A DNA stretch of 64,000 nt from Agrobacterium vaccinii. GTDB lineage: Bacteria > Pseudomonadota > Alphaproteobacteria > Rhizobiales > Rhizobiaceae. A program made the translations under genes and the position numbers. The notes under the pieces are model-generated. The model worked only from the letters and a program-made list of their open reading frames with translations, was not told the DNA's origin and did no database searches. Below, piece by piece: positions 5,731 through 23,851 of this stretch (the first letter of the stretch is position 1; each line of letters opens with the position of its first letter). The DNA is taken from NCBI RefSeq assembly GCF_021310995.1, contig NZ_CP054150.1:2294001-2358000 (forward strand), written 5' to 3'.

Positions 5731-7440
5731 TCAAAACAGGAAATAACGTTGCGCCATGGGCAGTACAGTAGCGGGTTCGCAGGTCAGGAGATCGCCATCC
5801 GCCCGCACCTCGTAGGTCTCAGGGTCGACCTCGATATGCGGCGTCAGCGAGTTGTGGATCATCGATGCCTTGGAGATGCCGCCGCGCACATTTCGCACGG
5901 CCACCAGCTTCTTGGCCACACCCAGTCGTTGCGACAAACCGGCATCCAGCGAAGCCTGCGATACGAAGGTGACGGAAGAGTTGGTACGCAGTTTGCCGTA
6001 AGCAGCAAACATAGGTCGGTAGTGCATTGGCTGGGGAGTCGGGATGGAGGCGTTGGGATCACCCATCGGCGCCGCGGCAATCGAACCGCCCATCAACACC
6101 ATTTCAGGCTTCACGCCGAAGAACGCCGGGTTCCACAGCACCAGATCGGCCCGCTTTCCAACCTCGATGGAACCGATTTCGTGGCTGATACCATGGGCGA
6201 TGGCCGGGTTGATGGTGTATTTGGCGATGTAACGACGAACGCGGAAATTATCGTTCTCGCCCTTCTCTTCCTTCAAACGACCGCGCTGGCGCTTCATCTT
6301 ATCCGCCGTCTGCCACGTGCGAATGGCGACTTCGCCCACGCGGCCCATGGCCTGGCTGTCGGAGGAAATGATCGAGAAGGCGCCGATATCGTGCAAAATA
6401 TCTTCTGCCGCGATGGTTTCCTTACGGATGCGGCTTTCGGCGAAGGCGATGTCTTCCGGTATCGACGGCGACAGGTGATGGCAGACCATCAGCATGTCCA
6501 AGTGTTCTGCCAGCGTGTTGATCGTGTAGGGTCGCGTCGGGTTGGTCGACGACGGGATGACGTTGGGATTGCCGCAAATCTTGATGATGTCAGGCGCATG
6601 GCCACCGCCCGCCCCTTCCGTGTGGAAGGCGTGGATGGTGCGCCCGTTGATGGCGGCAATCGTGTCTTCCACGAAGCCGCTTTCGTTCAGCGTATCGGTG
6701 TGGATCATGACCTGCACGTCGAATTCGTCGGCAACGCTCAGGCAATTGTCGATGGCAGCTGGCGTTGTGCCCCAGTCCTCATGCAGTTTCAGCGACGACG
6801 CACCAGCGAGGATCATTTCCTCCAGCGGCAAGGGCAGCGAGGCGTTGCCCTTGCCCGCAAGCGCAAGGTTCATCGGAAAACCGTCGAAGCTTTCGATCAT
6901 GCGTTCGATGTGCCAAGCACCGGTGCAGGTGGTGGCAAGCGTGCCGTGCGCCGGGCCGGAACCGCCGCCCAGCATGCAGGTGATGCCGCTCATCAAGGCT
7001 TCTTCGATCTGCTGTGGGCAGATGAAGTGAATATGCGCGTCCATGCCGCCTGCCGTGAGGATTTTGCCCTCACCGGCAATGGCCTCCGTGGAGGGGCCGA
7101 CGATGATCGTCACGCCCGGCTGCGTATCGGGATTACCCGCCTTGCCGATGGCGTGGATGCGCCCATCCTTCAAGCCGACATCAGCCTTGTAGATGCCACT
7201 GTGATCGACAATGACGACATTGGTGATGACGGTATCGACCGCACCCTCAGCCCGCGTGGCCTGGCTTTGTCCCATGCCATCACGAATGACCTTGCCGCCA
7301 CCGAATTTCACCTCTTCGCCATAGGTCGTGAAGTCCTTCTCGATCTCGATGAAGAGTTCGGTATCGGCAAGACGCACCTTATCGCCCACCGTGGGGCCGA
7401 ACATGCTGGCATAGGCTGCGCGGGAAATCTTGTAAGGCAT
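5731..7440 (-). CDS. ureC: Urease alpha (catalytic) subunit UreC
   Basis: UreC carries the di-nickel centre that hydrolyses urea to ammonia and carbamate in the cytoplasm. The 569 residues are full length. The nickel ligands and catalytic groups are present: HIH at 136-138, the lysine to be carbamylated at 218 in SLKLHEDWG, the flap motif MVCHHLS near 320, and SSDSQAMGR near 360. It is the last of the structural genes ureD-A-B-C, 48 bases after the DUF1311 gene. A 734-codon open frame on the opposite strand is a shadow of its high GC3 codon use. Confidence 0.98.
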
Positions 7441-11130: not shown

Positions 11131-11826
11131 TTATACCGTTAGATGTCTCCGCGCCTCAGCCGTATCCAAGGTTTCAGCCACACCTTCGTGAACAATCTCG
11201 CCGCGGTCCATGATGTAGACGTAATCCGCAAGCTCCCGGCAGAAGTCCAGATACTGTTCCACCAGCAGGATCGCCATGCCGGTGGAATCCCGCAGATATT
11301 TGATCGCCCGCCCGATGTCCTTGATGATGGATGGCTGAATACCCTCGGTCGGCTCGTCCAGTACGAGGATTTTGGGACGTGTTACCAGCGCACGCCCAAT
11401 GGCAAGCTGTTGTTGCTGTCCGCCGGACAGGTCACCCCCGCGCCGCGACAGCATGGATTGAAGCACCGGAAACAGGCTGAAAATATCGTCAGGAATGAAC
11501 CGTTCCTTGCGCGGCAGCGGCGCATAACCCGATTGCAGGTTTTCCTGCACCGTCAACAACGGAAAAATCTCCCGGCCCTGCGGCACATAACCCACCCCGC
11601 GCTTGGCGCGTTGGTGAGGAGCAAGCCCGTTGAGGCTCTCGCCCCCGAAACTTATCGTGCCGCCGCTGAGCGGATGCTGGCCGGTCACGGCCCGCAGCAA
11701 AGAACTCTTGCCCACGCCGTTGCGCCCCAGAACGCAGGTGATCTTGCCCATTTCCGCATTGAGCGAAATACCTCGCAGGGCTTGCGCCGCACCGTAATGG
11801 AGATTGATGTTGTCGACGCTTAGCAT
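11131..11826 (-). CDS. urtE: Urea ABC transporter ATP-binding protein UrtE
   Basis: UrtE is one of two ATPases that drive the urea uptake transporter UrtABCDE. The 231 residues show Walker A GRNGVGKSS, the ABC signature LSGGQQQQLAIGRAL and Walker B ILVLDEP followed by TEGIQPSI, the last a typical UrtE/LivF-like feature. It is the last gene of the minus-strand urt group. A small TerB-like gene lies between it and urtD. Confidence 0.95.
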   Translation of the reverse strand: MLSVDNINLHYGAAQALRGISLNAEMGKITCVLGRNGVGKSSLLRAVTGQHPLSGGTISFGGESLNGLAPHQRAKRGVGYVPQGREIFPLLTVQENLQSGYAPLPRKERFIPDDIFSLFPVLQSMLSRRGGDLSGGQQQQLAIGRALVTRPKILVLDEPTEGIQPSIIKDIGRAIKYLRDSTGMAILLVEQYLDFCRELADYVYIMDRGEIVHEGVAETLDTAEARRHLTV

Positions 11827-11839
11827 TCATCCACCTGTT

Positions 11840-12358
11840 TTAGTTCAGCAAGGTTCGCCGTAAAGCCTGCAAGGCAAGCTCCTGTTCGCTGGTCTTTTCG
11901 CCACCCACTTGGGCGACCTCATCGGCAATATCGATCAGTTGAAGCCGTTCATCGACATCCAGCGCGTTCGCCCAGATATGGCGGAAACGGCGAATGGGAT
12001 CTTCGGGATTGACGACATTCTTCGAAGCCCATTCTCCAAAGACGATCACTTCTTCCATGTCCTTTGACGCGATGATGTTTTTCATCCTGTCTCGAACAAC
12101 CAGTTTTGCCGCTTCCACATGCATCGGCTTTTCATTGGCGAGGCACATGAAGAAGGCAACGGCAGCGATGGCTGGATCACGGATGGAGGCAATCGGTGCG
12201 ATCTCGGCCTTCTTGCGAAAGGACCGGCGCTTATAGGCGCCGCGCATTTTCTCAACCGTATCGATGATTTCACTGCCCGCTTCTCGCATCATCTTCAGCC
12301 GCCAATACCAAACCGCCGCACCGCCAATTGCCATTACCAAAAGTCCGATCAACGCCAT
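11840..12358 (-). CDS. Membrane-anchored TerB-like helical protein in the urt operon
   Basis: This 172-residue protein has an N-terminal membrane segment (about residues 2-18) followed by a charged helical cytoplasmic domain. Its pattern (IRDPAIAAVAFFMCLAN, then acidic helices and DERLQLIDIADEVA) resembles the TerB/DjlA-like tellurite-resistance fold, but I make that link only tentatively. It sits 13 bases before urtE and about 76 bases after urtD on the same strand, so it is probably co-transcribed with the urea transporter. No function in urea uptake is known to me. Confidence 0.6.
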   Translation of the reverse strand: MALIGLLVMAIGGAAVWYWRLKMMREAGSEIIDTVEKMRGAYKRRSFRKKAEIAPIASIRDPAIAAVAFFMCLANEKPMHVEAAKLVVRDRMKNIIASKDMEEVIVFGEWASKNVVNPEDPIRRFRHIWANALDVDERLQLIDIADEVAQVGGEKTSEQELALQALRRTLLN

Positions 12359-12434: not shown

Positions 12435-13196
12435 CTACCGCCCCAGATAGTTCTCGATTACCTTCGGATCGCTCGACACAAAATCAATTGATCCTTCAGC
12501 CAGCACCGATCCTTCGGCCAGACACGTCACCTTCACACCAAGCTCGCGTATGAAGCCCATGTCGTGTTCCACCACCACCACGGAGCGGGTCTTGGCGATT
12601 TCCTTCAGCAGCACCGCCGTCTCAGCCGTCTCGGCATCGGTCATGCCTGCCACCGGCTCATCCACCAGCAACAGCTTCGGTTCCTGTGCCAGCAGCATGC
12701 CGATTTCCAGCCATTGCTTTTGCCCGTGAGAAAGATTGGCGGCCAGATCGTTGCGGCGGGAACCGAGGCGGACGGTCGAAAGGATTTCCTCGATACGAGC
12801 CTTGTCCTCTTCCGTCAGACGATAAAACAGCGTGGCGAAGACACCCCGTTTGCGGTTCAGCGCCAGTTCCAGATTGTCCCAGACCGTGTGGCTTTCGAAC
12901 ACGGTCGGCTTCTGAAATTTGCGCCCGATGCCGAGCTGCGCGATATCCGCCTCGTCCTTCTTCGTGAGGTCGATGCTGTCTTCGAACAGCACGGTGCCGC
13001 TGTCGGGCCGCGTCTTGCCGGTAATGATGTCCATCATCGTCGTCTTGCCAGCACCATTTGGGCCGATGATGGCGCGCAACTCTCCCGGCTCGACGACAAA
13101 CGACAGCGAGTTGAGGGCCCGGAAGCCATCGAACGACACGGATACGCCATCCAGATAGAGCAGGCTTTTCGTTCTGTTTTCGGCAATCGTGTTCAT
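12435..13196 (-). CDS. urtD: Urea ABC transporter ATP-binding protein UrtD
   Basis: UrtD is the second ATPase of the urea importer. Its 253 residues carry Walker A GPNGAGKTTMMD, the UrtD-like switch region IGRKFQKPTVFE, signature LSHGQKQWLEIGMLL and Walker B LLLVDEPVAGMTD. It follows urtC with only five bases between the genes, so the two are co-transcribed. Confidence 0.95.
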   Translation of the reverse strand: MNTIAENRTKSLLYLDGVSVSFDGFRALNSLSFVVEPGELRAIIGPNGAGKTTMMDIITGKTRPDSGTVLFEDSIDLTKKDEADIAQLGIGRKFQKPTVFESHTVWDNLELALNRKRGVFATLFYRLTEEDKARIEEILSTVRLGSRRNDLAANLSHGQKQWLEIGMLLAQEPKLLLVDEPVAGMTDAETAETAVLLKEIAKTRSVVVVEHDMGFIRELGVKVTCLAEGSVLAEGSIDFVSSDPKVIENYLGR

Positions 13197-13201
13197 GGTC
13201 T

Positions 13202-14380
13202 CTACTCCGCTGCCTGCTGTGCCGGTTTAGGCCCGTCGTCTTTGCCGACATTCCTGCTCGCCTCCGCCGCCGAGGCGGCGCTCTTTTCACGGCGGCCCAC
13301 CCAATAATGCTGGATGGTCCCAACGATGCCCTTGGGGAAAAACAGCGTGACGGCGATGAACAGCCCGCCCAGCGCAAACAGCCAGAATTCAGGGAATGCG
13401 CCGGTGAAGTAGCTCTTGCCACCGTTGACCAGGATTGCGCCCAGGATCGGTCCGATCAGCGTGCCGCGCCCGCCGACAGCCGTCCACACGACAACCTCGA
13501 TGGAGTTGGCAGGCGCAAATTCGCCGGGGTTGATGATGCCCACCTGCGGCACGAAAAGCGCACCCGCAATACCCGCCATCATGGCAGACACGACGAAGGT
13601 GAAGAGCTTGATATTCTCCACCCGGAAACCGAGAAACCGCACACGGCTTTCGGAATCACGCACACCCACGAGCACTTTGCCGAACTTGGAATTGACGATG
13701 CCGGAGGCGATCAGCAGGCAAAGGGCCAGCATGATCGCCGTCATGGCAAACAGCACGGCACGGGTACCATCGGCCTGAACGGAAAAGCCGAGGATGTCCT
13801 TGAAGTCCGTCAGGCCGTTATTGCCGCCGAAGCCCATATCGTTGCGGAAGAAGGCGAGCAGCAGCGCATAGGTCATCGCTTGCGTGATAATAGAAAGATA
13901 GACGCCGTTGACGCGGGAGCGGAAAGCAAACCAGCCGAAGACAAAGGCGAGCACGCCCGGCACGACCAGCACCATCAGCATGGCAAACCAGAACATGTCG
14001 AAGCCATGCCAGAACCATGGCAGTTCCTTCCAGTTCAGGAACACCATGAAGTCGGGCAGAATGGGATGACCATAGGTGCCGCGCGTGCCGATCTGGCGCA
14101 TCAGATACATGCCCATGGCATAACCGCCGAGTGCGAAGAACGCTGCGTGCCCCAGCGAGAGAATGCCGCAGTAACCCCAGACAAGATCGAGCGCCAGCGC
14201 CAGAATGGCATAGGACAGATACTTGCCCAGCATCGACATGATATAGGTCGGAATGCGGAACGCACTGTCTGCGGGAAGCAGCAGGTTGGACGCAGGCACA
14301 AGCAGCGCAATCGCCAGAATGATGCCGATGGCAATGGAGATGCGGCGGTCGAGTGCGCGCAGGAGGAAGCCGGTAATCAT
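13202..14380 (-). CDS. urtC: Urea ABC transporter permease UrtC
   Basis: UrtC is a LivM-type inner-membrane permease of the urea importer. The 392 residues contain about ten hydrophobic segments and the conserved stretch GYCGILSLGHAAFFALGGYAMG, typical of the branched-chain amino-acid/urea permease family. The C-terminal 30 residues are polar and Ala-rich. Its start overlaps the urtB stop codon by four bases (ATGA), which indicates translational coupling. Confidence 0.95.
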   Translation of the reverse strand: MITGFLLRALDRRISIAIGIILAIALLVPASNLLLPADSAFRIPTYIMSMLGKYLSYAILALALDLVWGYCGILSLGHAAFFALGGYAMGMYLMRQIGTRGTYGHPILPDFMVFLNWKELPWFWHGFDMFWFAMLMVLVVPGVLAFVFGWFAFRSRVNGVYLSIITQAMTYALLLAFFRNDMGFGGNNGLTDFKDILGFSVQADGTRAVLFAMTAIMLALCLLIASGIVNSKFGKVLVGVRDSESRVRFLGFRVENIKLFTFVVSAMMAGIAGALFVPQVGIINPGEFAPANSIEVVVWTAVGGRGTLIGPILGAILVNGGKSYFTGAFPEFWLFALGGLFIAVTLFFPKGIVGTIQHYWVGRREKSAASAAEASRNVGKDDGPKPAQQAAE

Positions 14381-15984
14381 GCTTCTATGGCCCTTCCCTT
14401 GAGTGCGAAGAGCCCGCGAGGCCGCTTCTGGATGAACAGGATGATGAGAACGAGAACGAGGATTTTGCCGAGAACCGCACCGACGGTGGGTTCAAGAAAT
14501 TTGTTGAGAACACCCAGCGTCAGCGCACCGACGAAGGTGCCCCAGAGATTACCGACCCCGCCGAACACCACGACCATGAAACTGTCGATGATGTAGGACT
14601 GGCCGAGATTTGGGGAGACGTTATCGATCTGGCTCAGCGCAACACCGGCCAGCCCGGCAACGCCAGAACCCAGTGCAAAGGTGAAGGCATCAACCCAAGG
14701 CGTCCTGATACCCATGGATGACGCCATGCGGCGGTTCTGTGTCACGGCCCGCATTTGCAGGCCGAAGGCGGAGCGCTTCAAGAGAAGCAGAAGGGCGAAG
14801 AACACCGACAGCGAGAAGCAGACGATCCAGACGCGGTTCCAGGTGAAGTTGAGATAGCCGACGCTGAAGGAACCGGACATCCAGCTGGGATTGCCGACCT
14901 CACGATTGGTCGGGCCGAAAATGGAACGCACGCCCTGCTGCAACATCAGCGAAATGCCCCATGTCGCCAGCAATGTTTCCAGCGGACGACCATAGAGAAA
15001 ACGGATCACCCCGCGCTCCATGACCAAACCCACAGCACCGGTAACGAGGAAAGCCACCGGCAGCGCAATCGTCAGCGACCAATCGAACAAAGCGGGATAG
15101 TTGCTGCGGATCACCTCTTGCACCATGAAGGTGGAGTAAGCGCCGATCATCACCATTTCGCCATGCGCCATGTTGATGATGCCCATCACGCCGAAGGTAA
15201 TGGCAAGGCCGATGGCCGCCAGCAACAGAACAGAGCCGAGCGACAGGCCGTACCAGATGTTCTGCGCGGCATCCCAAAGCGCCAGCGTGCTTTCGATTTT
15301 GATGATCGCAGACATCACATCTTCGCGCAGCATCGGGTCGAGCGACGGAGACGCAGATTGAAGAATGCCGATGACACCGCGACCGCCGATATTCGCGATC
15401 GTTTGGATCGCCGCGCGTTTTTCCTCAACGGAACGGTCGGACGCCAGCACCGAAACCGCACGTGCCTCTTCCATGCGGGTCCGCACCTGCGCATCCGTTT
15501 CCTTGGCAAGTGCTGCTTCCAGCAATTGCAGGTTTTCCGCGCTCGGCGCCTTCAGCACCGCATCTGCTGCGGAAAGGCGGACGGACTTTTCCGGGCTAAG
15601 CAACGTCAGACCGCCGAGGGCTGCGCGAATGACGCGGCGAAGATTGTTATTGACCTTGATCTTGGCAACCGCCGCCTTCGGCGCTTCACCAACACTGTCG
15701 CCGTTCAGCGGATCGATGAGCGTAAAATTGGCACCGGCGGGTTTGGTCATGAAAACGAGGTTGTCAGCTTTGCGAACGTAAAGCTCGCCCTCTGCAAAGG
15801 CATTCAGCGGCGGGACCACGCGTGGGTCTCCGGTCGCCGCGATCTGCCCGATCAGCGCTTCGGCCTGCTTGAAATCGGCAGTGCCGAGGGAGTCGATGAG
15901 GGGTTTTGGGTCGCTTTGCTGAGCGAAGGCAGAAAAAACGATGCTGAGCAGCAAGCTAATGGTGACGAACAAACGACGAAACAT
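14377..15984 (-). CDS. urtB: Urea ABC transporter permease UrtB
   Basis: UrtB is the LivH-type permease subunit. I start it at the ATG at 15984 because AAGGGGGA precedes it and the N-terminus (MFRRLFVTISLLLSIVFSAFA) is a signal sequence; the longer open frame runs into the intergenic repeat. The 535 residues match UrtB. A periplasmic N-terminal domain of about 230 residues with Ala-rich helices precedes the membrane domain, which holds FGVMGIINMAHGEMVMIGAY. This long extra-membrane N-terminus distinguishes UrtB from ordinary LivH. It is the first permease gene after urtA. Confidence 0.95.
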   Translation of the reverse strand: MFRRLFVTISLLLSIVFSAFAQQSDPKPLIDSLGTADFKQAEALIGQIAATGDPRVVPPLNAFAEGELYVRKADNLVFMTKPAGANFTLIDPLNGDSVGEAPKAAVAKIKVNNNLRRVIRAALGGLTLLSPEKSVRLSAADAVLKAPSAENLQLLEAALAKETDAQVRTRMEEARAVSVLASDRSVEEKRAAIQTIANIGGRGVIGILQSASPSLDPMLREDVMSAIIKIESTLALWDAAQNIWYGLSLGSVLLLAAIGLAITFGVMGIINMAHGEMVMIGAYSTFMVQEVIRSNYPALFDWSLTIALPVAFLVTGAVGLVMERGVIRFLYGRPLETLLATWGISLMLQQGVRSIFGPTNREVGNPSWMSGSFSVGYLNFTWNRVWIVCFSLSVFFALLLLLKRSAFGLQMRAVTQNRRMASSMGIRTPWVDAFTFALGSGVAGLAGVALSQIDNVSPNLGQSYIIDSFMVVVFGGVGNLWGTFVGALTLGVLNKFLEPTVGAVLGKILVLVLIILFIQKRPRGLFALKGRAIEA

Positions 15985-16086
15985 GATCCAAGTCCCCCTT
16001 GGAGCCTGCGCTGCACCTAGATACAGGCTGGCAAAACGTAACAGAAGAGGGATTTGGCCCTCGGATTCTGCCTCCCTCTCCACGTC

Positions 16087-16187
16087 ATCCTCGGGCTTGG
16101 CCCGAGGATCTACCACAGCAGCGGCGTATTCTCGTTGACGAAGAGTGTGGAGCGGAGGCAGCAGATCCTCGGGACAAGCCCGAGGAT
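16087..16187. repeat. Paired hairpin intergenic repeat, copy 1
   Basis: Two 23-bp hairpins lie between urtA and urtB. The first (16087-16109) is a 10-bp stem ATCCTCGGGC / GCCCGAGGAT with a 3-base loop. The second (16165-16187) is a 9-bp stem ATCCTCGGG / CCCGAGGAT with loop ACAAG. The same design recurs at 50061-50138. They resemble REP-like palindromes of rhizobial genomes. Here they may attenuate transcription or stabilise the mRNA between the highly expressed binding protein and the permeases. Confidence 0.85.
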
Positions 16188-16252
16188 TACGTTGCGTGAG
16201 AGGAGCGGTGCCAGCCAAATCACTTGACTAGCACTCCCGGCCCTCGCGCGTA

Positions 16253-17542
16253 TCAGCTACCCTTGCCGCCGCACTTGCCCGTCGCAACGTTGAAGTTGCC
16301 GCAGGACATTGGCTTGCGCCAATCGGAGATCAGGTCTTTCGAGTCAGGCAGGTAGTCCGACCATTCGTCACCAACAACCTGTGGCGTTTCCTGAACGACC
16401 TGGAACTGGCCATCCGCCTGTATTTCACCGATCAGCACCGGCTTGGTGATGTGGTGGTTCGGCATGACGGTGGAGTAGCCGCCCGAGAGGTTCGGCACGG
16501 AGACACCGATGATGCTGTCGAGAACCTTGTCGGTTTCCGTCGTGCCAGCGGCTTCAACGGCCTTCACCCACGCGTTAAAACCGATATAGGCGGCTTCCAT
16601 CGGGTCGTTGGTCACGCGCTTGTCGTTCTTTGTAAAAGCGTGCCATTCCTTGATGAACTCGGCATTGGCAGGGCTATCGACGGACTGGAAGTAGTTCCAG
16701 GCAGCAAGGTGGCCAACCAGCGGGCCCGTATCGAGACCGGCAAGCTCTTCTTCACCAACAGAGAAGGCCACGACTGGAATATCTTCGGCCTTCACGCCCT
16801 GGTTTGCCAGTTCCTTGTAGAAGGGAACGTTGGCGTCACCATTGATGGTGGAAACGACGGCCGTCTTCTTGCCAGCCGAGCCGAATTTCTTGATATCGGA
16901 GACGATGGTCTGCCAGTCCGAATGGCCAAATGGCGTGTAGTTGACCATGATGTCCTCAGGCTTCACGCCCTTGGATTCCAGATAGGCCTTGAGAATTTTG
17001 TTGGTTGTTTGTGGGTAGACATAGTCCGTACCCGCCAGAACCCAGCGCTCGACGCCTTCGGTGTTGGCCAGATAATCCACTGCGGGAATGGCCTGCTGGT
17101 TCGGCGCGGCACCGGTGTAGAAAATGTTGCGGGAGGATTCTTCGCCCTCATACTGCACGGGATAGAATAGGATGGAGTTCAGCTCTTCGAACACCGGCAG
17201 AACGGATTTGCGCGAGGACGACGTCCAGCAACCGAAAACGGCAGCGACCTTATCCTGGCTGATCAACTGACGGGCTTTTTCAGCAAAGAGTGGCCAGTCG
17301 GATGCGGGATCGACCACAACGGCTTCGAGCTTCTTGCCGAGAACGCCACCCTTCTTGTTCTGCTCGTCGATGAGCATCAACATCGCATCTTTAAGGGTGG
17401 TTTCGGAAATGGCCATGGTGCCGGACAAGGAGTGCAGCACGCCGATCTTGATCGTGTCGTCAGCGGCGAATGCACCGTGGAAGGCGGTGGTGGACATAAT
17501 GGCGCCGAGCAAGGCGCCGGTCAGCATTGTCTTGAAAGTCAT
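16253..17542 (-). CDS. urtA: Urea ABC transporter substrate-binding protein UrtA
   Basis: UrtA is the periplasmic urea receptor of the UrtABCDE importer. The 429 residues begin with a signal peptide cleaved near AFHGAFAADD. The mature protein has the type I periplasmic fold with IKIGVLHSLSGTMAISE at its start. It contains the UrtA-typical AVFGCWTSSSRKSVLPV and YYPVQYEGEE-like stretch (here FYPVQYEGEESS), and ends in a Cys/Gly tail (SCGNFNVATGKCGG). It is the first gene of the urt operon, about 270 bases from urtB, with the hairpin repeat in between. Confidence 0.97.
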   Translation of the reverse strand: MTFKTMLTGALLGAIMSTTAFHGAFAADDTIKIGVLHSLSGTMAISETTLKDAMLMLIDEQNKKGGVLGKKLEAVVVDPASDWPLFAEKARQLISQDKVAAVFGCWTSSSRKSVLPVFEELNSILFYPVQYEGEESSRNIFYTGAAPNQQAIPAVDYLANTEGVERWVLAGTDYVYPQTTNKILKAYLESKGVKPEDIMVNYTPFGHSDWQTIVSDIKKFGSAGKKTAVVSTINGDANVPFYKELANQGVKAEDIPVVAFSVGEEELAGLDTGPLVGHLAAWNYFQSVDSPANAEFIKEWHAFTKNDKRVTNDPMEAAYIGFNAWVKAVEAAGTTETDKVLDSIIGVSVPNLSGGYSTVMPNHHITKPVLIGEIQADGQFQVVQETPQVVGDEWSDYLPDSKDLISDWRKPMSCGNFNVATGKCGGKGS

Positions 17543-17598: not shown

Positions 17599-17732
17599 CT
17601 GGGAGGGACTATCGGCTTCACGACCGTGAAACCGTATACGTTAATTGACGTAGATGGGGTGGCGAAACGGGAACATAGGCGCAAAGCAAAGCGTCACGCC
17701 GGAAGCGTTCCGCATTTTCGCGCAACGTCGGC

Positions 17733-18409: not shown

Positions 18410-19444
18410 ATGACTAAGTTCAAACTCGAGTATATCTGGCTCGATGGTTACAAGCCGGTAGCAAACCTGCGTGGCAAGACGCAGATCAAGGAATTCGACG
18501 AATTCCCGACACTCGAGCAGCTTCCGCTCTGGGGCTTTGATGGCTCCTCCACGATGCAGGCTGAAGGCCACAGCTCGGATTGTGTTCTGAAGCCCGTCGC
18601 CATCTATCCAGACCCAGCCCGCACCAACGGCGCACTCGTGATGTGCGAAGTCATGATGCCGGATGGCGTTACACCGCACGCTTCCAACAGCCGCGCAACC
18701 ATCCTCGACGACGAAGGCGCATGGTTCGGCTTCGAACAGGAATACTTCTTCTACGAAGACGGTCGTCCGCTCGGCTTCCCTGAGCAGGGTTACCCAGCTC
18801 CACAGGGTCCATATTACACAGGCGTCGGCTACAAGAACGTCGGCTCCATCGCTCGTGAAATCGTTGAAGAGCATCTCGACCTCTGCCTCGAAGCAGGCAT
18901 CAACCACGAAGGCATCAACGCCGAAGTGGCCAAGGGTCAGTGGGAATTCCAGGTATTCGGCAAGGGCTCCAAGAGCGCGGCCGACCAGATCTGGATCGCT
19001 CGCTACCTGCTTCTTCGCCTGTGCGAAAAGTACGGCATCGACGTCGAATTCCACTGCAAGCCACTCGGCGATACCGACTGGAACGGCTCTGGCATGCACT
19101 GCAACTTCTCCACCAAGTTCATGCGCGAAGTTGGCGGCAAGGAATATTTCGAAGCCCTCATGGGTGCCTTCGAAAAGAACTGGAAAGAGCACATCGACGT
19201 TTACGGCCCGGACAACCATCTGCGCCTGACCGGCAAGCACGAAACAGCGCCATGGAACAAGTTCTCCTACGGCATTGCTGACCGTGGCGCATCGATCCGC
19301 GTTCCGCACTCCTTCGTCAACAACGGCTACAAGGGCTACCTTGAAGACCGTCGTCCGAACTCTCAGGGCTGCCCATACCAGATCGCTTCCGTCGTTTTGA
19401 AGACGATCGCAGAAGTGCCGCTCGCAAAGTCGGCTGCTGCCTAA
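18410..19444 (+). CDS. glnII: Glutamine synthetase type II (eukaryotic type)
   Basis: GSII condenses ammonium with glutamate at the cost of ATP. The 344 residues have the length and signatures of the eukaryote-like GSII of rhizobia and actinomycetes: EYIWLDGYKPVANLRGKT at the start, WGFDGSSTMQAEG, WEFQVFG and the ATP-site region NFSTKFMRE. It is about 100 residues shorter than GSI and lacks the adenylylation-loop tyrosine context, so control is transcriptional and translational. An RpoN promoter and the divergent gstI supply those controls. It lies next to urea uptake and urease, which generate its ammonium. Confidence 0.97.
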   Translation: MTKFKLEYIWLDGYKPVANLRGKTQIKEFDEFPTLEQLPLWGFDGSSTMQAEGHSSDCVLKPVAIYPDPARTNGALVMCEVMMPDGVTPHASNSRATILDDEGAWFGFEQEYFFYEDGRPLGFPEQGYPAPQGPYYTGVGYKNVGSIAREIVEEHLDLCLEAGINHEGINAEVAKGQWEFQVFGKGSKSAADQIWIARYLLLRLCEKYGIDVEFHCKPLGDTDWNGSGMHCNFSTKFMREVGGKEYFEALMGAFEKNWKEHIDVYGPDNHLRLTGKHETAPWNKFSYGIADRGASIRVPHSFVNNGYKGYLEDRRPNSQGCPYQIASVVLKTIAEVPLAKSAAA

Positions 19445-19541: not shown

Positions 19542-22500
19542 ATGGCCGCAAGGCAACGCATCATCCCCGTCAGGCGCGAATATAATCGTTGGGTCGCCAA
19601 CCAGACGCTGGAAGATTACGCGCTGCGCTTTACCGCCAAAAGCGCCCGGCAGTTTTCCTCAAGCCGCATTTCCCACACCGCTATCGGCGCGATTTCGTTT
19701 CTGGCACTGGAAGCCATCGGCGGCGCGATTACTCTTTCCTACGGCACGACGAACGCGTTTTTCGCCATCCTCGTCGCCGCAACCGTCATGCTCGCCGTCG
19801 GCATTCCCATCAGCCGCTACGCCATCCGCTACGGTGTGGACATCGACCTTTTGACGCGTGGCGCCAGCTTCGGCTATATCGGCTCCACCATCACATCGCT
19901 CATCTATGCCGCCTTCACCTTCATGCTGTTTGCTATCGAAGCATCCATCATGTCGGGTGCTCTGGAACTGGCGCTCGGCATACCCCTGTGGATCGGCTAC
20001 ATTATCTCGGCCATCATGGTCATTCCGCTGGTCACCCATGGTGTGCGGCTCATCAGCCGGTTCCAGATCATCACCCAGCCCTTCTGGATCGTCCTCAACG
20101 TCCTGCCCTTTATCTTCATCGCCTTTCTGGATTGGGAAAAATTCGATCTGTGGCGCGCCTTCGCAGGCATTCACCACGCCTCCGGCCCGCCCGGCACCGT
20201 TGCGGATTTCAATCTCGTTGAGTTCGGAGCCGCCTCTGCCGTCATTCTGGCGCTGATGTCGCAGATTGGCGAGCAGGTGGATTTCCTTCGCTTCCTGCCA
20301 GCCGATGGCAAGCTGAAGCTGCGGCATCGCTTTGCCGTATTTCTCGCCGGCGCCGGTTGGGTGCTGGTGGGCGTGCCGAAACTGCTGGCGGGCTCTTTCC
20401 TCGTGGTGCTGACCTTCAGCTCCGGCGTATCGGTGGACCGCGCCGCCGATCCCTCACAAATGTACCTGACCGCCTTCGGCTACATGATCCCGAACCAGAA
20501 TGCCGCGCTGCTGCTGATGGTGGCTTTCGTGGTCGTTTCGCAGTTGAAGATCAACGTCATGAACGCCTATGCGGGGTCGCTGGCGTGGTCCAATTTCTTC
20601 TCGCGCCTAACACACAGCCACCCGGGCCGTGTCGTCTGGCTGGTGTTCAACGTGCTGATCGCATTGCTGCTGATGGAACTGGGCATCTACCGGCTTTTGG
20701 AAGAAACGCTCGGCATCTTCTCCATCGTCGCCATGGCGTGGCTGTGCACCATCTCAGCCGATCTTTTCATCAACAAACCGCTTGGCCTTGCGCCGCCCGG
20801 CATCGAGTTCAAGCGCGCGCATCTTTACGACATCAACCCCGTTGGCGTCGGCACCATGGCGCTGTCGGCCACGGTTGCGCTGACTGCCCATTTCGGCACC
20901 TTCGGTGCGCTGGCCGCATCGCTTGCGCCTTACCTCACCCTCATCGTCGCCTTCACGGCATCGCCGCTCATCGCCTGGGGCACGAAGGGCAAATTCTACC
21001 TTGCGCGCAAACCGCGCCAGAAATGGAAGGAAGCCAGCGGCATCACCTGTTCCATTTGCGAGCATGATTTCGAACCAGAAGACATGGCCTGGTGCCCGGC
21101 CTATGCCGCGCCCATCTGCTCGCTCTGCTGTTCGCTGGACAGCCGCTGCCACGATATGTGCAAGCCAAAGGCCAAGCTCAACTATCAGGTGGCAACAGTC
21201 GCCCGCACCTTCCTGCCAAATGATCTGGTCGCCCGGCTCTCTAGCCGGTTGGGCAGATATGCCATGTCGGCGGCGCTCGCCATCGCCGTCCTCGGCGGCA
21301 CCCTCGCGCTCATCGCCCATCAGGTCGGCACCGCCTCCCCTGCCACCGTCGATGTGGTCAACCGCACTATCCTTGCCGTCTTCTTCGTCTTTGCCGTCAT
21401 CGCTGGAATCGTCTGCTGGTTTCTGGTGCTGGCGCATGACAGCCGTGTCGTGGCGGAAGAAGAATCCTCTCGCCAGAACACGCTGCTGTTAAAGGAAATC
21501 GCCGCGCACAAGAAGACCGATGCGGCACTTCAAAACGCCAAGGACACAGCGGAGGCGGCAAACCGGGCGAAGAGCCGCTATGTCGTGGGCTTAAGCCACG
21601 AATTGCGCACGCCGCTGAATGCCGTTCTTGGGTATGCGCAAATCTTAGAGCGCGACGAAACCATTCCCCAGCCGCGCCAGTCCGCCATCAAGGTTATCAG
21701 GCGCTCTGCAGACCACCTCTCCGGGCTGATTGACGGTCTCTTGGATATTTCCAAGATCGAGGCAGGCCGTTTGCAGGTCTACTCCAACGAAATCAATATC
21801 AAGGACTTTCTGGACCAGATCATCGATCTGTTCCAGCCGCAGGCGCAGGCCAAGGGGCTGGACCTGAAACATGAACGCAGCAGGGCCCTGCCGCAATATG
21901 TTCGTACCGATGAGAAACGCCTGCGCCAGATCCTCGTCAACCTGCTGTCCAACGCCATCAAGTTTACCGACGCAGGCACCGTCAGTTTCGATGTCACCTA
22001 TCGCAGTCAGGTCGCAACCTTCACCATTTCCGATACCGGGCGCGGCATTGCCGAAAAGGATTTGAGCCGCATCTATGAGCCCTTCCAGCGCGGTGAGGCA
22101 GAGAGTATTCGCCCCATGCCGGGCCTCGGCCTTGGCCTCACCATCACACAACTGCTGACCAATACGCTTGGCGGGGAAATCTCTGTTGTCAGCGAAAAGG
22201 ACAAGGGTTCGACCTTCAAGGTCCGGCTGATGCTCTCGGCAGTAGACCGCCCCAACACGGCACCGGCGGCGGAAAAGACGATCGTCTCCTATTCCGGCCC
22301 ACGCCGCACCATCGTCATCGTGGACGACAATGAAGACCATCGCGAATTGATGCGCGAAGTGCTGGGTCCGCTCGATTTCGTGGTGCTGACGGCGCAAAGC
22401 GGCCCGGAATGCCTAACACTGATCGAAGGCGTGAAGCCCGATCTCTTCCTGATCGACATCTCCATGCCCGGCATGAGCGGCTGGCAACTGGTATCTCGCC

Positions 22501-22928
22501 TGCGTGAGGCGGGCCAATCGGCACCCCTCATCATGCTGTCAGCCAATATCGGCGATGGCTCTGTCGCCGGTGCGGGCGAAGACAATCACAACGATGCGAT
22601 CGCAAAACCCGTCGATATTCGCCGTCTATGCGACAAGCTCGCGGTTCATTTGGGCCTCACCTGGGTTTACGAAACCGATGCCCCTGCTAAGCCAGCAAAA
22701 GCCGACATCACCACGCCGGGGCCGCAGCACATCAAGGATTTGCAGCAGCTGGGCGAAATCGGCTACATCAGAGGCATAGAGGCAAAGCTTGCCGATCTCG
22801 CCCGCACATCGGAAAATCTGGCCTTCACCGAAGAACTAACAACCTATGTCCAGTCCTTCGACATGGCGGGCTATGCCGCCTTTCTCCGCCGTTTTGAAAA
22901 CCCAGAACCCAGGGAGCGTCAGCCATGA
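19542..22928 (+). CDS. Hybrid histidine kinase with N-terminal NCS1 permease-like domain
   Basis: This 1128-residue fusion starts with about twelve transmembrane segments (residues about 40-480) that resemble NCS1 purine/cytosine/hydantoin permeases, including the RGASFGYIGS stretch. A cysteine-rich block follows (from Cys503, CSICEHD, then CPAYAAPICSLCCSLDSRCHDMC) and may bind zinc. Two more membrane segments come next. Then come a HisKA domain with His686 in SHELRTPLNA, an HATPase domain with DTGRGIAEKD and GLGLGLTI, a receiver domain with Asp972 in LIDISMPGMSG, and a C-terminal tail of about 100 residues. It probably couples solute binding or transport to phosphorelay signalling. The signal is unknown; the neighbours suggest a nitrogenous compound. 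Confidence 0.85.
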   Translation: MAARQRIIPVRREYNRWVANQTLEDYALRFTAKSARQFSSSRISHTAIGAISFLALEAIGGAITLSYGTTNAFFAILVAATVMLAVGIPISRYAIRYGVDIDLLTRGASFGYIGSTITSLIYAAFTFMLFAIEASIMSGALELALGIPLWIGYIISAIMVIPLVTHGVRLISRFQIITQPFWIVLNVLPFIFIAFLDWEKFDLWRAFAGIHHASGPPGTVADFNLVEFGAASAVILALMSQIGEQVDFLRFLPADGKLKLRHRFAVFLAGAGWVLVGVPKLLAGSFLVVLTFSSGVSVDRAADPSQMYLTAFGYMIPNQNAALLLMVAFVVVSQLKINVMNAYAGSLAWSNFFSRLTHSHPGRVVWLVFNVLIALLLMELGIYRLLEETLGIFSIVAMAWLCTISADLFINKPLGLAPPGIEFKRAHLYDINPVGVGTMALSATVALTAHFGTFGALAASLAPYLTLIVAFTASPLIAWGTKGKFYLARKPRQKWKEASGITCSICEHDFEPEDMAWCPAYAAPICSLCCSLDSRCHDMCKPKAKLNYQVATVARTFLPNDLVARLSSRLGRYAMSAALAIAVLGGTLALIAHQVGTASPATVDVVNRTILAVFFVFAVIAGIVCWFLVLAHDSRVVAEEESSRQNTLLLKEIAAHKKTDAALQNAKDTAEAANRAKSRYVVGLSHELRTPLNAVLGYAQILERDETIPQPRQSAIKVIRRSADHLSGLIDGLLDISKIEAGRLQVYSNEINIKDFLDQIIDLFQPQAQAKGLDLKHERSRALPQYVRTDEKRLRQILVNLLSNAIKFTDAGTVSFDVTYRSQVATFTISDTGRGIAEKDLSRIYEPFQRGEAESIRPMPGLGLGLTITQLLTNTLGGEISVVSEKDKGSTFKVRLMLSAVDRPNTAPAAEKTIVSYSGPRRTIVIVDDNEDHRELMREVLGPLDFVVLTAQSGPECLTLIEGVKPDLFLIDISMPGMSGWQLVSRLREAGQSAPLIMLSANIGDGSVAGAGEDNHNDAIAKPVDIRRLCDKLAVHLGLTWVYETDAPAKPAKADITTPGPQHIKDLQQLGEIGYIRGIEAKLADLARTSENLAFTEELTTYVQSFDMAGYAAFLRRFENPEPRERQP

Positions 22929-23851
22929 GCGTACCGTCTGCCGCGCTAGCCAAGGATATCGTTCTGCTGGTGGATGACAGCCCAGATGCGCTGGGCTTCC
23001 TCACCGATGCGCTGGAACAGTCAGGCTTCTCCGTGCTGATCGCCACATCGGGCCAAGCCGCTCTCAACATCGCCGAACGCATTACCCCCGATATCATTCT
23101 GCTGGACGCCGTCATGCCATCAATGAATGGGTTCGAGACCTGCACGCGGCTGAAATCCAACGCCGCTGTGACGCAGGTCCCGGTCATCTTCATGACCGGG
23201 CTGACCGAAACGGAGCATGTGGTGCGGGCACTTGAGGCTGGTGGCGTAGACTACCTGACCAAGCCGATCAACATCGATGAGTTGCGCGCTCGTATTCGTG
23301 TTCACCTCTCCAACGCCCGTTCCGCCCAAAGCGCGCGGGTTGCGCTGGATGCTGCGGGCCGCCATCTGCTGGCCGTGCGCGCAAACGGCGCCATCCACTG
23401 GTCGACACCGCAGGCCACGCGGCTGGTCAATGCTGCAACGGGCCGCGACGACGGAATGGACATCGTGTCACGCCATATCGCTGAATGGCTGGAAACGAGA
23501 GGCAATGACGCCCTTCGCGAGACACCGCTCACCATAGAGCAGCCCGACCGCGCCACGCTGCAACTCACATTTCTGGGCGCGATGGGACCGGACGAACACC
23601 TGTTTCGCCTGACCGCAGCCAACGACAAATCCGCCGATGCGCTGCTGCGCCAGCATTTCACGCTGACCGTCAGGGAATCGGAAGTGTTGCTGTGGATTGC
23701 CAAAGGCAAATCCAACCGCGATATCGGTGACATACTGGGCCTTTCAGCCCGCACCGTGAACAAGCATCTGGAACAGATCTACGTCAAGCTGGGCGTTGAA
23801 AACCGCGCGTCAGCCGCGGTAAAGGCCGCACATATTCTGCATGATACATAG
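22925..23851 (+). CDS. Response regulator with LuxR-type HTH
   Basis: This 308-residue regulator has an N-terminal receiver domain with phosphoacceptor Asp61 (ILLDAVMPSMNG) and the conserved KP in LTKPINIDE. A linker domain of about 100 residues follows, then a LuxR/FixJ-type helix-turn-helix at about 240-300 (RESEVLLWIAKGKSNRDIG). The linker holds NGAIHWSTPQATRLV, which looks PAS-like, but I do not assert it. Its ATG overlaps the stop codon of the permease-kinase gene by four bases, so the two are surely partners. The target genes are unknown. Confidence 0.93.
   Translation: MSVPSAALAKDIVLLVDDSPDALGFLTDALEQSGFSVLIATSGQAALNIAERITPDIILLDAVMPSMNGFETCTRLKSNAAVTQVPVIFMTGLTETEHVVRALEAGGVDYLTKPINIDELRARIRVHLSNARSAQSARVALDAAGRHLLAVRANGAIHWSTPQATRLVNAATGRDDGMDIVSRHIAEWLETRGNDALRETPLTIEQPDRATLQLTFLGAMGPDEHLFRLTAANDKSADALLRQHFTLTVRESEVLLWIAKGKSNRDIGDILGLSARTVNKHLEQIYVKLGVENRASAAVKAAHILHDT

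Follow-up and report, generated by a model that had tools for sequence, protein, structure and literature searches.

A candidate urea- and amide-sensing two-component system with an NCS1-type permease domain in Agrobacterium vaccinii

A stretch of 64,000 nt from the Agrobacterium vaccinii contig NZ_CP054150.1 (positions 2,294,001 to 2,358,000 of assembly GCF_021310995.1; the window, from here on) encodes a hybrid histidine kinase of 1128 residues, in which a transporter-like N-terminal domain is joined through a cysteine-rich block to a phosphorelay kinase, and a LuxR-type response regulator whose gene overlaps that of the kinase. We consider it likely that the pair forms a two-component transceptor, which would bind and sense urea in this organism and short amides in many others, and which would control urtABCDE and probably the urease genes. 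The explanation is built on the domains of the two proteins, the relationship of the N-terminus to NCS1 permeases, the conserved gene neighbours and a conserved DNA site, all of which are observed. The kinase design itself is widespread; what is new here is the likely role of the family.

Domain architecture and the origin of the N-terminal domain

The reading that a preliminary description had made of this locus, a single chain of 1128 residues with a phosphorelay kinase bearing His686 and Asp972, is borne out by the open reading frame (ORF) and by Pfam. HisKA, HATPase_c and receiver domains are all present together with their phospho-acceptors (His686 within GLSHELR, Asp972 within LIDISMPG), as is typical of a hybrid histidine kinase, and this part of the protein is ordinary. 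The kinase and regulator ORFs share the bases ATGA, the four-base overlap on which a partnership between them had been proposed, and the regulator harbours the domains of a NarL/LuxR response regulator (Response_reg at residues 13-125, GerE at 246-301). A relative of this regulator follows 55 of 57 kinases sampled from the phylum, in agreement with the proposed partnership, with the exceptions being two kinases that have no receiver. With respect to the 12 transmembrane helices of the LeuT-type fold that mark NCS1 permeases, the permease-like domain displays 12 segments within residues 47-478 when hydropathy is averaged over the family, or 11 when a stricter threshold is applied to this one sequence, and two further hydrophobic segments (residues 573-591 and 613-631) follow the cysteine block. 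As to the Hpt domain that a four-step relay would use, no Pfam family matches kinase residues 1034-1128 at 0.01; this C-terminal stretch of 95 residues (22641-22925) shares the lack of any family at that threshold with the 120-residue middle of the regulator (23300-23659).

Direct searches of the N-terminus against Pfam, NCBIfam and the PDB, whether with the single sequence or the family, name nothing useful, and PF02133 is not listed for any of 40 diverse members; weak matches to G proteins look like chance and were discarded. A profile of the domain built from 40 diverse members, however, aligns with a set of six stand-alone permeases at 99.8 % in hhalign (E 6.6e-29, 438 columns). Two members of this set match PF02133 strongly, one weakly and one not at all, with two unscanned, and the profile of the set finds the solved structures of a cytosine permease (5.2e-33) and of Mhp1 (4e-14). 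Against a further protein that scores above the PF02133 cut-off (L052), the domain profile reaches 99.9 %, with the controls, an SSF protein and LivM, returning 0.9 % and 0.04 %, respectively. In addition, there is no SSF match in the kinase or the diverse members, and the genome of this strain has none at all. Because the profile alignments to PF02133-type proteins stand so far above the controls, the N-terminal domain is, as judged by profiles, NCS1 by descent and not SLC5, within a branch that lies below the reach of Pfam. The suggestion of a complete NCS1-like permease is not right as stated, since no family model shows it, although an NCS1-type domain is supported; the comparison with NCS1 and SLC5 families that had been proposed as a check is empty when made directly, and finds NCS1 rather than SLC5 when made by profile. 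The contention that this solution differs from the SLC5 domain of CbrA is therefore upheld.

The invariant polar residues of the domain (E133, K336, N338 and N341) align with the substrate and cation sites of Mhp1, the roles of whose residues (substrate, Na+ sites) we take as generally understood. Via the six permeases, E133 corresponds to Mhp1 Gln121, N341 to Asn318, and the K336-I337 pair to the Na+-site residues S312/T313, whilst the position of Trp117 is occupied by Leu in this kinase and by Phe in the family consensus. Although the alignments have an identity of only ~17 % and the residue roles are presumed, this pattern would suit a ligand that is small and non-aromatic, with no coupling to Na+.

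A stronger form of the transceptor explanation would have the domain as an active NCS1 urea/amide permease, the transport of which gates the kinase. The full-length alignment to PF02133-type permeases is in keeping with this, as is the behaviour of the SLC5 kinase CbrA, which binds and takes up histidine according to one account (PMC13022988). However, the neighbouring genes encode an ABC transporter dedicated to urea, and the Lys-Ile aligned with S312/T313 makes Na+ coupling unlikely; we therefore regard active transport as possible, but doubtful.

Distribution and gene neighbourhood

The genome of this strain is close to Agrobacterium rubi (98 % to L112). The family is present in all 19 genomes of the genus (this one included), in 64 of 249 genomes of the order (E ≤ 0.001, distant stand-alone permeases counted), and, among 398 genomes sampled from the phylum, in 52, with 57 kinase places in all, whilst a database search scored at least 8000 candidates, with all 8000 matching. 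Accordingly, the NCS1-kinase design belongs to a large and widespread family, and is not special to this locus. The sensor half also matches 533 plasmid records, 342 of which are from Klebsiella, suggesting that the system travels on plasmids.

All 55 of the phylum kinases with readable flanks adjoin urea or amide genes (the two others are cut by contig ends, and cannot be scored for context). Of these loci, 35 contain an amide-type UrtA-like gene together with formamidase and/or aliphatic amidase, ten a true urtA (one with ureC as well), eight ureC only and two formamidase only. We use amide-type, or fmdD, for the kind of UrtA-like protein encoded in amide clusters, a distinction that NCBIfam does not draw, both kinds being named UrtA there. 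A second set of 24 loci, picked by us from other matches, comprises 14 with urtA, seven of the amide type and three with formamidase. The UrtA-like genes are by no means always accompanied by the kinase, as they occur in 169 of the 398 genomes (E ≤ 1e-60), at least 117 of which gave no such kinase. Five genomes with both UrtA types (G254, G430, G434, G620 and G627) were checked by hand, and in each the kinase resides at the amide-type copy. On annotated plasmids, urtA-E is found in all six further kinase loci opened from 60 places listed (Klebsiella twice, Peteryoungia, Thioclava, Roseomonas and Shinella), with formamidase or amidase also present in both Klebsiella loci and in those of Peteryoungia and Shinella. 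The two Klebsiella plasmids (L195 and L199) carry a full urt-formamidase-kinase-regulator cassette.

Within the window, the proximity of glnII, urtA and urease that had been remarked upon is confirmed by urtA-E matches above NCBIfam cut-offs and by Pfam for ureC, with the glnII match falling below its cut-off. In Rhizobium sp. Q54, urt is present and no glnII is annotated in the stretch. The broader proposal of a sensor for a nitrogenous solute gains support from the neighbours and from the DNA site described below, and is narrowed by them to urea here and amides elsewhere; genes for purine, allantoin or hydantoin use were not sought around the kinases.

A conserved palindrome upstream of urtA

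Intergenic regions were taken only where a urtA-like gene lies divergently no more than 1.2 kb from the kinase, giving 122 sequences and, with one per group of similar sequences, 66 non-redundant regions. A count of pairs with no preset motif places TACG-N8-CGTA first, in 51 of the 66 (101 of the 122 hold these arms), with the best pair reaching only 12-14 of 66 in five rounds of shuffling; here, and in the 20 rounds used for the core below, shuffles moved blocks of two bases. The spacing is strict, as spacers of 0-7 and 9-20 between the same arms occur in 0 or 1 of 66 regions, and the site is concentrated, with 54 examples in 24.4 kb of regions compared to 57 across the whole 852 kb of these loci. 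Of the 27 regions with urtA, 25 contain it, as do 26 of the 39 of the amide type, and 16 of the 25 urtA sites begin 92-98 bp from the urtA start. A 14-base core derived from the same data, TACGTCA-N2-TGACGTA, occurs with no more than one mismatch in 39 of 66 regions and in no shuffled copy.

The window lies outside the set of 66, as glnII separates urtA from the kinase. Nevertheless, its site has a single mismatch to the core and is the sole match in the window within two mismatches (0.04 expected; four of 100 shuffles had one). Of 16 arm pairs in the genome, the window site alone fits the whole core, and it is the only zero-mismatch match in the genome once position 6 is opened. Four other genomic sites with one or two mismatches were fetched and set aside: no urea or amide gene was recognized by eye in the three regions read, and the fourth is L265. 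A further association concerns the recognition helix of the regulator (RTVNKHLE): 11 of the 12 listed rows in which its Asn is replaced by Asp or Thr have a right arm that reads GCGTA (the exception being L201). The loci of receiver-less kinases, which have another regulator, contain TACG-N8-CGTA in none of five cases. Taken together, this strongly suggests that the regulator binds upstream of urtA.

The cysteine block and paralogous sensors

Where at least seven cysteines in about 45 residues had been noted, there are in fact eight, within the more compact span of residues 503-540. The pattern is retained in 240 of 240 kinases among the matches listed by two protein searches and in 177 of 177 from fetched loci (three of 180 blast matches having been dropped beforehand for incomplete coverage, and with many rows being close relatives), and its spacing is nearly fixed. 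A profile of the 48-residue block finds 57 strong matches (E < 1e-19) in the 398 phylum genomes, which by hand comparison are the same 57 places as the kinases, and five marginal ones (E 4e-4 to 8e-3); in this sample, the block belongs to this kinase family alone. Among stand-alone actinobacterial permeases without a kinase, the first five cysteines occur in 120 of 120 listed, with the last three absent in five that were aligned, so part of the block is independent of the kinase. Comparison with known metal sites yields only short local matches to zinc fingers and rubredoxins, and metal binding by the block is likely. Some kinases from urease contexts (L077 and L078) possess a longer linker between the permease domain and the block. 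For one stand-alone actinobacterial permease with a five-cysteine tail (L194:8923-10599), Pfam gives no match at the 0.01 threshold.

A tree of 90 rows, made by a quick method and with some long branches, requires at least seven changes amongst the four contexts, with starred branches forcing three for urtA and three for ureC. We tentatively read the urea contexts as derived from amide contexts. Four genomes (G405, G465, G485 and G614) have two copies each, one at amide genes and one at urea or urease genes. In a well-supported clade of receiver-less proteins (L072-L076, five rows, support 100), the same permease-cysteine sensor is attached to another HisKA kinase core, and in the two such loci read the genes after the kinase encode a receiver-kinase protein, an OmpR-type regulator and a formamidase (one locus confirmed by Pfam). 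As this clade keeps formamidase beside a different core, the sensor half is a module whose tie to amide genes outlasts a change of kinase.

These observations bear on a second alternative, namely that the system controls urea and amide genes but senses nitrogen status, a nucleobase, or metal or redox state at the cysteine block, with the permease domain as a membrane anchor only. The eight cysteines in every kinase examined would accord with such a signal, as would glnII adjoining in this genus and the fact that no strong switch of ligand-specific residues sets urea contexts apart from amide ones. An anchor does not, however, account for invariant E133, K336, N338 and N341 at positions aligned with Mhp1 substrate and cation sites; a common status signal would have no need of same-genome paralogues split by substrate context, nor does it sit easily with the same sensor half on a different kinase core beside formamidase. 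We therefore consider this alternative unlikely.

Proposed mechanism and its weighing

In the transceptor explanation, the NCS1-type domain would bind, and may also carry, urea, and its conformational state would pass through the eight-cysteine block, probably a zinc-bound hub, and the two helices to the kinase. Phosphate would then move from His686 to the LuxR-type regulator, with the receiver of the kinase itself (Asp972) acting as a modulator or relay. A dimer of the regulator would occupy the palindrome upstream of urtA, and would activate urtABCDE along with, probably, the urease genes that run in the same direction. The same system would, in many other genomes, sense amides of the formamide/acetamide type, and control an amide-type UrtA-like transporter, formamidase and amidase. 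We infer the permease domain as receptor, and urea as its ligand here, from module conservation and context; binding of the site, activation as the direction of effect, zinc and the phosphate path are likewise what we infer.

Several observations weigh against this explanation. Genome context reveals the company that the genes keep, but not the ligand of the domain, and when urea-type kinases are compared with those of the amide type for residues that might set specificity, no convergent active-site switch emerges, with the recurring changes being mild (e.g. positions 274, 327, 347 and 401). With respect to the DNA site, the exact TACG-N8-CGTA is absent from 15 of 66 regions and, as the main gap, from eight of nine urease-context loci scanned, such that another site or target is needed there. 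The bare arms are unspecific, occurring at 16 places in the 4.87 Mb genome and three in the window (one inside ureC), and thus the inner bases matter. Position 6 of the core, which was opened in the genome search, is one that the window site does not match, and at up to two mismatches the opened core has 15 forward and 11 reverse matches, compared to 26 and 32 for a backwards control; with looser matches being rarer than in the control, only the best genome match is meaningful. Finally, three Asn-type regulators (L089, L214 and L221) also face TACGC...GCG sites, and the rows behind the pairing of helix and arm are related, with few independent changes, so that it counts as support only.

The idea of a sensor for purines, allantoin or hydantoin, placed near urea genes because urea is an end product, is very improbable: stand-alone relatives are named allantoin or purine-cytosine permeases by their sources, and a distant Paracoccus example (L200:5923-7551, 24.7 % identical) lies beside hydantoinase-type genes, but those names are no more than annotations, urea or formamide/acetamide genes occur at every one of the 55 readable loci (purine and hydantoin genes not having been searched for near the kinases), and purine breakdown is not known to end usually in formamide.

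How bacteria sense outside urea and simple amides thereby becomes open to direct test, with a receptor candidate and its regulator at hand, together with an exact site of 16 bp and naturally occurring urea and amide paralogues.

Features of the window

Table 1. Coordinates of the kinase, its domains, the regulator, the putative operator and neighbouring genes (window positions)
Feature	Position	Strand	Basis
Hybrid histidine kinase with N-terminal NCS1-type permease domain, 1128 aa, ATG start	19542..22928	+	ORF
NCS1-type domain, residues 19-490, 12 hydrophobic segments	19596..21011	+	Profile comparison and hydropathy
Eight-cysteine block, C-x2-C-x11-C-x7-C-x2-C-C-x5-C-x3-C, residues 503-540	21048..21161	+	
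Two extra hydrophobic helices, residues 573-631	21258..21434	+	Hydropathy
HisKA, residues 677-742, with His686	21570..21767	+	Pfam
HATPase_c, residues 789-898	21906..22235	+	Pfam
Receiver (Response_reg), residues 924-1033, with Asp972	22311..22640	+	Pfam
Response regulator, 308 aa, receiver and LuxR/GerE HTH (HTH 23660-23827)	22925..23851	+	ORF, Pfam
Proposed operator TACGTTAATTGACGTA, 16-bp palindrome (arms TACG-N8-CGTA), 94 bp upstream of urtA	17637..17652	.	Candidate
Glutamine synthetase, glnII-type, separating urtA from the kinase in this genus	18410..19444	+	NF041605, below cut-off (391.9 of 500 bits)
urtA, urea ABC transporter binding protein	16253..17542	-	TIGR03407, above cut-off
urtB	14377..16218	-	TIGR03409, above cut-off
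urtC	13202..14380	-	TIGR03408, above cut-off
urtD	12435..13196	-	TIGR03411, above cut-off
urtE	11131..11826	-	TIGR03410, above cut-off
ureC, urease alpha subunit	5731..7440	-	PF00449, PF01979

The names UreD, UreE, UreF and UreG were assigned by eye to further products of the window. A small ORF (window 11840-12358) lies between urtD and urtE, and is also present in some Rhizobium loci. Presumed locus tags for the urt genes of S. meliloti could not be tied to the locus, and were not used.

Comparison with known systems

Control of urea or amide genes is known from UreR, AmiC/AmiR and NtrBC, none of which is known to be a transporter-derived membrane kinase. A search of the literature, which covered few subscription papers, returned no description of an NCS1-kinase fusion or of a two-component urea sensor with urt, nor any account of bacteria sensing outside urea or simple amides via a membrane kinase.

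With regard to the N-terminal domain, the likeness to NCS1 permeases (PF02133; Mhp1, CodB) consists of a full-length profile match to PF02133-type proteins, which themselves match solved NCS1 structures. It differs from them in having no direct Pfam or PDB match, in its fused cysteine block and kinase, and in the Leu at the position of Mhp1 Trp117. The actinobacterial stand-alone proteins annotated as allantoin or purine-cytosine permeases (e.g. WP_260640374.1), five of which were aligned at 39-41 % identity, share the first five cysteines; these have no kinase, and the last three cysteines are missing in those aligned.

The nearest parallel in design is provided by the SLC5-STAC kinases CbrA, CrbS and RpuS (with CbrB, CrbR and RpuR), in which a transporter domain is likewise fused to a histidine kinase for the control of nutrient-use genes. 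In published work, CbrA is an SLC5 transceptor with a lysine filling its Na2 site (PMC13022988), and CrbR is a LuxR-family regulator that acts through an inverted repeat (PMC5715377, PMC9100948). The system described herein has instead an NCS1 domain followed by an eight-cysteine block and two helices, with another operator and other target genes. On balance, we favour the view that it represents a second, independent class of transporter-kinase receptor, in which an NCS1 permease turned receptor would read the amide or ureido group by way of an eight-cysteine metal hub and its own operator, having been duplicated several times into urea and amide sensors on two kinase cores. The fusion of permease to receptor is, it would therefore seem, not confined to SLC5.

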